Origin: Myxococcota bacterium | GTDB lineage: Bacteria; Myxococcota_C; UBA6777 | Assembly (NCBI GenBank): GCA_023150835.1 | Contig: JAKLKB010000030.1 | Coordinates: forward strand, 1-55,531 | Direction of reading: 5' to 3' | DNA length: 55,531 nucleotides | Part shown: positions 951 to 55,531 of the stretch, piece after piece | Numbering within the stretch: the stretch's first letter is position 1 | Layout: each line of letters begins with the position of its first letter | Program-made: the position numbers and the translations under genes | Notes under the pieces: generated by a model | Told to the model about the DNA's origin: nothing | What the model saw: the letters and a program-made list of their open reading frames with translations, nothing else | Databases searched by the model: none

Positions 951-1059
951 TACGATATCCGGGTGACGTGTACACAAAGGAGAGTACGCAAATGCCCGAT
1001 TATTGGGCAGCCATAGGGGGCTGCCCCTACCTCTGATCACACAACGGGCGGATTTCGTA
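951..1059 (-). repeat. Dispersed TIR element, copy A
   Basis: A 109 bp element bounded by TACGATATCC (951-960) and GGATTTCGTA (1050-1059), which are near-perfect inverted repeats. In its own orientation (minus strand) it reads TIR, CGCCCGTTGTGTGATC, then a hairpin GGGCAGCC-loop-GGCTGCCC, then a tail with TTTGTGTACACGTCACCC. It matches copy D (27882-27994) almost throughout. It has no coding capacity and looks like a MITE or REP-type non-autonomous element. Confidence 0.85.
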
Positions 1060-14000: not shown

Positions 14001-14525
14001 GTGCAAAAGACGAAAAACATATCCATCGCATGGGCGATCTGTTTGTGTAGCGTTTTGTTTCTGCATTGTTCTGGAAAGACACAAACCAAAAATGACGCAA
14101 ATCCCGATCCCAAGGGCGATGCCAACACCACCACCATCAAACAACGCGGATGTATTCGTGGTCGTGTTGTCAACGAAGATGGACAAGGTTTCTCGGGAGT
14201 CCTCGTCAGCACCGATCCTCCAACCAGTCCCGAAGTCTCCGACAGCCGGGGGTTTTTTGAGATCTGCAATCGCCGCGTGATCAAAAACGAAGAGACGGGT
14301 GAAACTGCCAAAGAAGCCATCAAAGACGCCAACTACACCCTAAAACTCAACAAAGATGGCTACCATGCGCGACCTCTCAAATTCGACTACAGCGGCACCA
14401 ATATCAAGCTGCGCAACTTGGTGATGGTCGAAAAAACACGACCCCTCCCCACCGTTGTGCAAACCAAAGTCAAAGAAGGGAAGCGCGACTCGGGACTTGA
14501 ACCCAAAGCGCCGATCTCGGAATGA
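14001..14525 (+). CDS. Lipoprotein with carboxypeptidase-regulatory-like beta domain
   Basis: A 174 aa lipoprotein. The signal SIAWAICLCSVLFLHCSGK has a lipobox ending at Cys. After a polar Asn/Asp-rich linker comes a beta-sandwich of the carboxypeptidase regulatory type (IRGRVVNEDGQGFSGVLVST, then SDSRGFFEIC and TLKLNKDGYHARPLKFD). Such domains serve as surface adhesion or structural modules, without catalysis. The start is GTG at 14001, with GGAG 7 bp upstream. It is followed in the same direction by the large 909 aa envelope protein, 158 bp downstream; that region has a weak GCC/GGC hairpin but no clear terminator. Confidence 0.75.
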   Translation: MQKTKNISIAWAICLCSVLFLHCSGKTQTKNDANPDPKGDANTTTIKQRGCIRGRVVNEDGQGFSGVLVSTDPPTSPEVSDSRGFFEICNRRVIKNEETGETAKEAIKDANYTLKLNKDGYHARPLKFDYSGTNIKLRNLVMVEKTRPLPTVVQTKVKEGKRDSGLEPKAPISE

Positions 14526-22051: not shown

Positions 22052-22249
22052 TACGAAATCCGCCCGTTGTGTGAGCGAAATAGGGTAGGGGCAGCCCCCT
22101 GTGGCTGCCCAAGAACAGGGCGGCTACTCGGATTCACTCCTGAATCCCTGCTCACTGTCGAGGGGCCAGCCCCCTGTGGCTGCCCAAGAACAGGGCGGCT
22201 ACAGCGGAGCGCACTCACCCTTACGTGCACACTTCTCTCGGATATCGCA
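22052..22249 (+). repeat. Dispersed TIR element, copy C, with internal duplication
   Basis: Bounded by TACGAAATCC (22052-22061) and GGATATCGCA (22240-22249), 198 bp. It is longer than the other copies because the central hairpin block GCCCCCTGTGGCTGCCCAAG through CAGGGCGGCTAC is present twice (about 22091-22127 and 22166-22202). It is inserted inside the transporter operon, ending 21 bp before the GTG of the second binding protein, and is preceded by short ACGAGTC iterations (22024-22040). Confidence 0.85.
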
Positions 22250-22270
22250 CCAGTACGAGGAGATCCATCC

Positions 22271-23827
22271 GTGCAAAACATCAAGAGAGATCTATCCTTT
22301 GTTCGTTTGTTCTCTGTGTGGGCGGGCATGGCGTTGCTTGCGATGGTCCTTCCTGTCTCCGCCACCCCGTTGAAATACACCGAAGATCGGACGCCTTCGG
22401 TGCTTAACCCGCTGTTTGCGGAGGACATGTACTCTGTGCGTGCTTCCGAACTGGTCTTTGAAAGCCTGATCGGTTGGGACAAAGATCAAAAACCAGCCCC
22501 GATGCTGGCGACCGAATGGTCTGTCGCTCCCGACAAAAAATCCATCTCCCTGACCCTTCGACAAGGTGTCAAGTGGCACGACTCCAAGCCCTTCACCGCC
22601 GAAGACGTCGACTTCACCATCAAAGCGATGACCAGTCGCAGCACTCAGATCGCCGACCGTTATCTGGCGCAGATCATCAAAAACGTTTCTGTCCTCGGCA
22701 CACACCAGATCAAAATCGATTTCAAACAGCCCTTGAGCAAGCCTGAAAAATGGTTGCAATTCAAGATCATCCCCAAACATCGCTTCAAAGGCGGCACCGT
22801 TCAGCGTTCTGACTACTTTAACCAAAAACCCTACGGTACAGGACCGTTTCAATTCCGTTCATGGATCGGGCGAAAGATCCAACTGCGCCGCTTTTCTGGG
22901 CATTGGAGAGGCGACCAGATCCGCCTTGATGGCGTCGCTCTTCAAGCCATCCCCGACAAAAACATCCAACGCGAAGTCCTTCGCTACGGCGGCCTTGATA
23001 CCATTATCCGCGTCCGTCCGAGAGATATCCCCCTCTTTGAACGCGACCAAGGTGTCGGTTTGATGCCTTATTCCACCAACGACTGGTGGTACCTCGGCAT
23101 CAATCATCGAAAAGGCAGTCTCTTCGCGGATCTGCGCGTTCGCCAAGCCTTCATTTATGCCCTCGATCGGGCCGGATTGCGCGATGCCCACCTCGGAGAC
23201 GGCCAGATCATCAGCGGGCCTTTCTCGCCCAACGATCCCCTCTACAACTTTTCCGTAGAAGCCCGCACCCAAGACACCGAAAAAGCCACCAAACTTCTCG
23301 ATGCTGCCGGCTGGAAACTCCCTTCTGGACAGCCTTATCGCAAAAAAGCTGGAAAAGTCCTCAAGCTGGATTTTCTCTTGCCGCGTAGCAGAAATTCATA
23401 CAAAGAACTGTGCCTCGCGATCCAAGGCGAGATGCGCAAGATCGGTGTCAACGTCGAGCTGATCTGGGTCGATGACGCTGCATGGGACCGCCAAGTCTTC
23501 ACCCAAAAGCGCTTCGATATGGTCCTCCACATCTGGAACTTTGATGAACTCTCCACCATCTATCCGCTCTTTCATTCACGCGGAAACCGCAACTACATCA
23601 GCTACAAAAACAAAGAAGTCGACCGCCTCCTCGAACAAGCCACCCGCACCACCGACCCCGTCATCTACAAAGCCATCTACGGAAAAATCCACAAGATCCT
23701 CCACGATGACCTCCCCTACCTTTTCCTCTGGTCTCTCACCAACTACTCCGCAATGTCTGTGCGCGTGAAAAAAGTGACCATCCACCCTTTTAATTATTTC
23801 CATTACGCGCATTCATGGGTAAAATAG
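22271..23827 (+). CDS. Peptide-type ABC transporter substrate-binding protein 2
   Basis: A 518 aa paralog of the protein at 19399, alignable end to end: TPLKYTEDRTPSVLNPLFAE, LTLRQGVKWHDSKPFTAEDV, QFKIIPKHRFKGG, STNDWWYLGINH and LSTIYPLFHSRGNRNYI. The signal peptide is SVWAGMALLAMVLPVSA. The GTG at 22271 has GGAG 8 bp upstream, only a few bases after the end of TIR element copy C. A frame extension upstream would translate the repeat and is rejected. Differences are spread through the protein, for example DSKPF versus DGEAF and an extra Lys/Gly in the HRKGS segment. The two proteins therefore probably differ in ligand preference while sharing the same permease (inference). Confidence 0.92.
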   Translation: MQNIKRDLSFVRLFSVWAGMALLAMVLPVSATPLKYTEDRTPSVLNPLFAEDMYSVRASELVFESLIGWDKDQKPAPMLATEWSVAPDKKSISLTLRQGVKWHDSKPFTAEDVDFTIKAMTSRSTQIADRYLAQIIKNVSVLGTHQIKIDFKQPLSKPEKWLQFKIIPKHRFKGGTVQRSDYFNQKPYGTGPFQFRSWIGRKIQLRRFSGHWRGDQIRLDGVALQAIPDKNIQREVLRYGGLDTIIRVRPRDIPLFERDQGVGLMPYSTNDWWYLGINHRKGSLFADLRVRQAFIYALDRAGLRDAHLGDGQIISGPFSPNDPLYNFSVEARTQDTEKATKLLDAAGWKLPSGQPYRKKAGKVLKLDFLLPRSRNSYKELCLAIQGEMRKIGVNVELIWVDDAAWDRQVFTQKRFDMVLHIWNFDELSTIYPLFHSRGNRNYISYKNKEVDRLLEQATRTTDPVIYKAIYGKIHKILHDDLPYLFLWSLTNYSAMSVRVKKVTIHPFNYFHYAHSWVK

Positions 23828-55494: not shown

Positions 55495-55531
55495 GAGCGA
55501 GGGCAGGCACGGGGGCCTGCCCCTACCTCTT
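55495..55531 (-). repeat. Dispersed TIR element, copy E, cut by the window edge
   Basis: The hairpin GGGCAGGC-ACGGGG-GCCTGCCC (55501-55522) followed by CTACCTCT matches the centre of copy A, in the same orientation. The stem carries a paired change relative to copies A, C and D (GGC/GCC instead of GCC/GGC at the stem top). The outer TIR beyond the hairpin would lie outside the window; no left TIR is recognisable. Confidence 0.6.

Follow-up and report, generated by a model that had tools for sequence, protein, structure and literature searches.

A probable MITE family of about 113 bp with a core of paired GTAG hairpins in a Myxococcota genome

The dispersed repeats with TACGA ends in the window, i.e. 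the whole 55,531-nt stretch of DNA that was analysed, very probably form a MITE family with a unit of ~113 bp. The family is new, and its recent mobility is strongly supported; the kind of element is well known. The first-pass annotation had left the choice between MITE and REP-like element open, and both names apply, as the mobile unit is a MITE bounded by terminal inverted repeats (TIRs) and a target-site duplication (TSD), and the core of this unit consists of two paired REPs. The metagenome-assembled genome (MAG) to which the window belongs, as contig C176, comprises 7.56 Mb in 239 contigs. Among named relatives, the MAG 'Myxococcota bacterium KLAP109' comes closest; it shares about 91–94% nucleotide identity with the window genome (one sigma factor is 97% identical) and is the only genome of the comparison set near enough for a site-by-site test. 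Another genome listed in the same genus (G001) gives the same end-motif matches as KLAP109 (G005), and the two are apparently one assembly.

Copies, family size and anatomy

All four complete copies read by the first-pass annotation are present, in both orientations and with the ends it described (Table 1). The sequence at 55495–55531, which it took for a fifth copy cut by the edge, is a REP hairpin without TACGA ends that comes from a different repeat. The neighbourhood of this hairpin matches that repeat at the end of contig C196 (C196:17) and on the short contig C1 (L263/L266), and its position at the ends of C176 and C196 and on C1 suggests that the repeat breaks the assembly. The MITE itself codes for nothing recognisable, as had been proposed, despite a mechanical ORF (22067–23827) that begins within copy 3. 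An intragenic end pair at 14238–14521 of the window was judged spurious.

Table 1. Coordinates of MITE copies and REP hairpins in the window (C176) and of copies of a second MITE family on other contigs.
Feature	Contig	Position	Strand	Remarks
MITE copy 1	C176	951..1059	-	109 bp; flanks TGG (948-950) / TGA (1060-1062)
REP hairpin core, copy 1	C176	1005..1030	-	GTAG + GGGCAGCC/GGCTGCCC
MITE copy 2	C176	10846..10967	+	122 bp; right end degenerate; flanks TCA / GGA
REP hairpin core, copy 2	C176	10878..10903	+	
MITE copy 3	C176	22052..22249	+	198 bp because the core is duplicated; flanks TCA / CCA
First REP core, copy 3	C176	22085..22110	+	
Second (duplicated) REP core, copy 3	C176	22160..22185	+	
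MITE copy 4	C176	27882..27994	+	113 bp; perfect TCA/TCA duplication
REP hairpin core, copy 4	C176	27915..27940	+	
REP hairpin GTAGGGGCAGGCCCCCGTGCCTGCCC	C176	55501..55526	-	other repeat family, contig edge; not this MITE
Second MITE family	C201	65231-65342		
Second MITE family	C87	79381-79492		
Second MITE family	C113	41470-41581		
Second MITE family	C235	12536-12647		
Second MITE family	C90	39254-39365		
Second MITE family	C99	88666-88777		

Genome-wide, 984 matches to the end motif (500 + 484) were counted when up to two mismatches were allowed, compared with 1 (0 + 1) for a reversed control pattern, and the full 113-nt consensus gave 61. Paired elements were counted in a 1.1-Mb sample of contigs and scaled to the genome; the 83 found correspond to ~570, and the family is estimated at ~500–570 elements. 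This sample contains about one element per 13 kb, close to the one per 11 kb first read from the window. KLAP109 carries 230 end motifs (~115 elements), and a search with the end motif found no copy in three other genomes from the same family. The best dispersed copy pairs are 98% identical, and nearly identical copies are few. A match on a viral contig (L211) lies within a coding gene and was rejected as chance, and a plasmid search for the MITE gave no match.

The modal element is 112–114 bp long. Its two terminal inverted repeats, which match imperfectly, are TACGARATCCG...TGTGTGATCG and the partner TACGATATCCG...TGTGTACAC. The outer 11 bp of both ends pair in 97% of cells with the exception of position 6, which is A or G at one end and usually T at the other, so that the two ends of an element can be distinguished. 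Two GTAG-tagged REP hairpins, placed head to head and with a common GCCC/GGGC arm, form the core. It reads GTAG-GGGCAGCC-loop-GGCTGCCC, followed after ~7 nt by GGGC..CTAC; the opposite strand of this second half begins with GTAG again and continues into a short GCCC/GGGC hairpin, one arm of which also belongs to the first hairpin. The first hairpin is retained in 92% of cells, and its innermost pair is A-U for C-G in 5 of 70 sequences, with a non-pairing variant in 26 others. Compensatory changes were sought in the GCCC/GGGC and GTAG/CTAC pairings and none was found, so the case for these pairings is one of conservation only.

Variants of the element included duplicated cores (copy 3 of the window), tandem copies, copies with another repeat nested in a hairpin loop, and a 122-bp form in which the second hairpin is GGGCGGTTCGCGAACCGCCC. 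The repeat nested in MITE REP loops, CCCCCATAGGCGTTAGGTG...CACCTTAACAAGGCGCGTATGGGGG, was seen at C201:76195-76563, C104:71036-71401 and C235:172695-173177. Tandem arrays of full or partial copies were found at C87:147241-147515 of the window genome and at C201:75246-75722; in these arrays full neighbours lie 3 bp or 12 bp apart.

Target sites and spread relative to KLAP109

Target-site duplications were found at the element boundaries. They are exactly 3 bp long and read only TAA, TTA, TCA or TGA (TNA); an exact TNA duplication flanks 56 of 117 elements (48%), and 32 of 83 in a second count, where 2.6% would be expected by chance. A further bias in the flanks, towards G at −6 and C at +6, amounts to a palindromic target preference. 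Four cases of neighbouring copies exactly 3 bp apart were also observed, the spacing expected if one copy had inserted beside another. A TA duplication of the Tc1/IS630-like kind, suggested by the TA at each end, was rejected, the junctions showing 3 bp.

Compared to the window genome, KLAP109 was empty at nine of ten comparable sites, and no insertion was common to both genomes. At copy 1 it has a clean empty site with a single TGA (G005:C170), and it also lacks copy 4, the target there reading AAC. The DNA flanking copy 2 is too diverged in KLAP109 for an empty-site comparison, and at copy 3 KLAP109 has no full element and an end-like remnant at the site. Eight single-copy elements outside the window were tested by searching their joined flanks against KLAP109; seven of the sites were empty with one TNA, though not the same TNA as in the window genome in two of them, and the remaining site (L002) held unrelated DNA. 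The empty sites coincide with the ends of the element and, together with the TNA duplications, bear out the first-pass view of a non-autonomous, dispersed and recently active family. Since the tested copies are missing from the same spots in the nearest relative, the family appears to have spread recently. The simplest reading of these alignments would be insertion in the lineage of the window genome after its split from KLAP109; precise excision in KLAP109 at single sites is less likely.

The transposase partner

Within the IS5 family, members of the IS1031 group prefer TNA and generate exclusively a 3-bp repeat (PMC12016507). The TNA target and 3-bp duplication of the MITE thus suggest that a transposase of IS5/IS1031 type acts on it in trans, and we consider this class, inferred from target choice, reasonably likely for the partner. 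The first-pass annotation had proposed looking for a transposase or REP-associated tyrosine transposase whose ends match; none with MITE ends was found. The assembly of the window genome yielded no autonomous element that had TACGA ends; there, a search with PF13340 gave no hits and one with PF01609 gave five, none of which had TACGA ends. Searches with PF13586 and PF13359 returned nothing suitable as a partner, transposase loci scanned for MITE ends gave no match, and the long end-to-end pairs examined enclosed nothing beyond nested repeats, degenerate ends and ordinary genes.

The only IS5-type fragment (C238:23183-23506; PF13586, E 1e-9) is decayed. It belongs to an element of ~400 bp (L200:1460-1870) with perfect inverted repeats GAGGGTGTTTGCGAAAAAGTG and a TTA duplication, which adjoins a tandem of MITE copies. 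The fragment, used as a query, retrieved no autonomous partner. The target rule of the decayed element is like that of the MITE but its ends differ (GAGGGTGTTTGCG), and because the only IS5-type fragment does not share the MITE ends, the family was not classed as an IS5 derivative. The partner may have been lost, may lie in unassembled repeats of the MAG or may be of another family. An insertion sequence outside IS5 that makes 3-bp duplications, such as an ISAzo13-like element or some IS3, would agree with the failure to find an IS5-type transposase with matching ends; we regard such a partner as possible but doubtful, given the strict TNA choice described for the IS1031 group (PMC12016507) and the decayed IS5-type element with its TTA duplication in the same genome.

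The REP core, its genomic setting and known systems

A GTAG tag with a short GC-rich hairpin in many copies describes the core of the MITE only, not the whole element. GTAG hairpins numbered 82, compared with 7 in shuffled DNA. A RAYT-like gene of the window genome (L032, C113:53266-54030) encodes 254 aa with an HUH motif and matches NF047646 with an E of 9e-16, below the curated cut-off; GTAGGGGCAGGCCCC REPs lie within it, and REPs also lie beside it. Multiplied fragments of the REP encode an in-frame insertion of ~75 residues (GQAQI repeats) in the gene; in other words, the REPs have expanded within the gene of their own transposase.

The same type of REP was found outside the TACGA family. 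A second MITE family, unrelated to the first, has a 112-bp unit whose ends are TAGGACTTACGCAGTT (also given as TAGGACTTACGCA), a 5–6 bp duplication and a GTAG REP core of this type, GTAGGGGCGGTTCGCGAACCGCCC (Table 1); in the 122-bp variants of the TACGA family, the second hairpin is identical to this core. A third repeat, that at the window edge, C196 and C1, carries it too, and genome G008 has 12 such REPs and no TACGA ends. These occurrences, together with those at the RAYT-like gene, indicate that the REP forms a module separate from the MITE. The paired elements of the first sample were all at least 100 bp long and no REP-less version was seen, so the founder probably already carried the REP. 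A further dispersed repeat of ~165 bp, whose ends resemble GGACTTACGCAGTT and whose palindromic core is of another kind (GGGGTCAAGGG...), was observed at C87:135982-136148 and C90:56791-56951 and at more than 30 places in KLAP109.

REPs of the RAYT system might have colonised several unrelated MITE families of DDE transposons in one genome and been exchanged among them, the TIR/DDE route spreading the 113-bp unit and the GTAG/HUH route renewing the core; we offer this only tentatively and hold it to be rather unlikely as it stands. Far less probable is that the element is primarily a REP or REPIN spread by RAYT, a single-strand HUH transposase, with the TACGA ends as conserved flanks. The excess of GTAG hairpins and the RAYT-like gene with its REPs would suit such an origin, but the mobile unit ends at inverted TIRs that read TACGA, not GTAG, with a TNA duplication, and the empty-site junctions largely refute it. 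RAYT-driven spread of REPs is not known to produce TIR-bounded units with TNA duplications.

A simple gene model assigns 83% of the DNA to coding sequence, yet 54 of the 64 elements fell between genes; of the remaining ten, most were located where an ORF starts or ends. Elements were over-represented between convergent genes (13/45 vs 44/301) and under-represented between divergent ones (6/45 vs 65/301), a bias that is a tendency only because the numbers are small. The intergenic position, conserved hairpin and convergent excess would also fit functional elements held by selection rather than mobile ones (terminators, RNA stabilisers or protein-binding sites), which is highly improbable, since no comparable site is common with the sister species, refuting it for most copies, and an Rfam search of the window gave no match.

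Returning to the MITE reading, the terminal inverted repeats would be recognised in trans by a DDE transposase, presumably of IS5/IS1031 type, which would insert the element at TNA and create the 3-bp duplication. Insertions between genes would be tolerated, and the family would have multiplied after the split of the two sister species. A RAYT/REP system is the probable source of the REP core, which would now move with the MITE, and in transcripts the hairpins are probably neutral or mildly stabilising 3' structures, as their intergenic position and convergent excess suggest. Much of the dispersed repeat content of a little-studied lineage is explained by this family, which combines an exact insertion rule (TNA, 3 bp) with a burst placed later than a species split and can serve as a natural example for studying how REPs come to lie inside other mobile elements.

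Among known systems, MITEs that stem from IS5-family elements (IS1031 group) are likewise short, noncoding, TIR-bounded, of high copy number, flanked by 3-bp TNA duplications and, as is presumed here, mobilised in trans, but the ends here are TACGARATCCG and no autonomous parent with such ends was found. Correia/NEMIS, RUP and ERIC elements are also intergenic, hairpin-forming repeats of 100–130 bp with TIRs and hundreds of copies; their end sequences are unrelated, and Correia and RUP elements duplicate TA, unlike the TNA duplicated here. The GTAG REPs, BIMEs and REPINs associated with RAYT share the GTAG tag, the GC-rich stem, the opposite-orientation pairs and a RAYT-like gene, whereas the REP pair described here lies inside a TIR/TSD element and the moving unit ends at the TIRs (Di Nocera et al. 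2013, PMC3733652). The combination of REP and palindrome has precedent in Anabaena variabilis (PMC3733652, section 7), where GTAG-15 REP dimers are reported to lie within a longer palindromic dispersed repeat (TATAGGA...TCCTATA), but with other ends and another REP, whereas here one REP type occurs in at least two unrelated MITE families of one genome.
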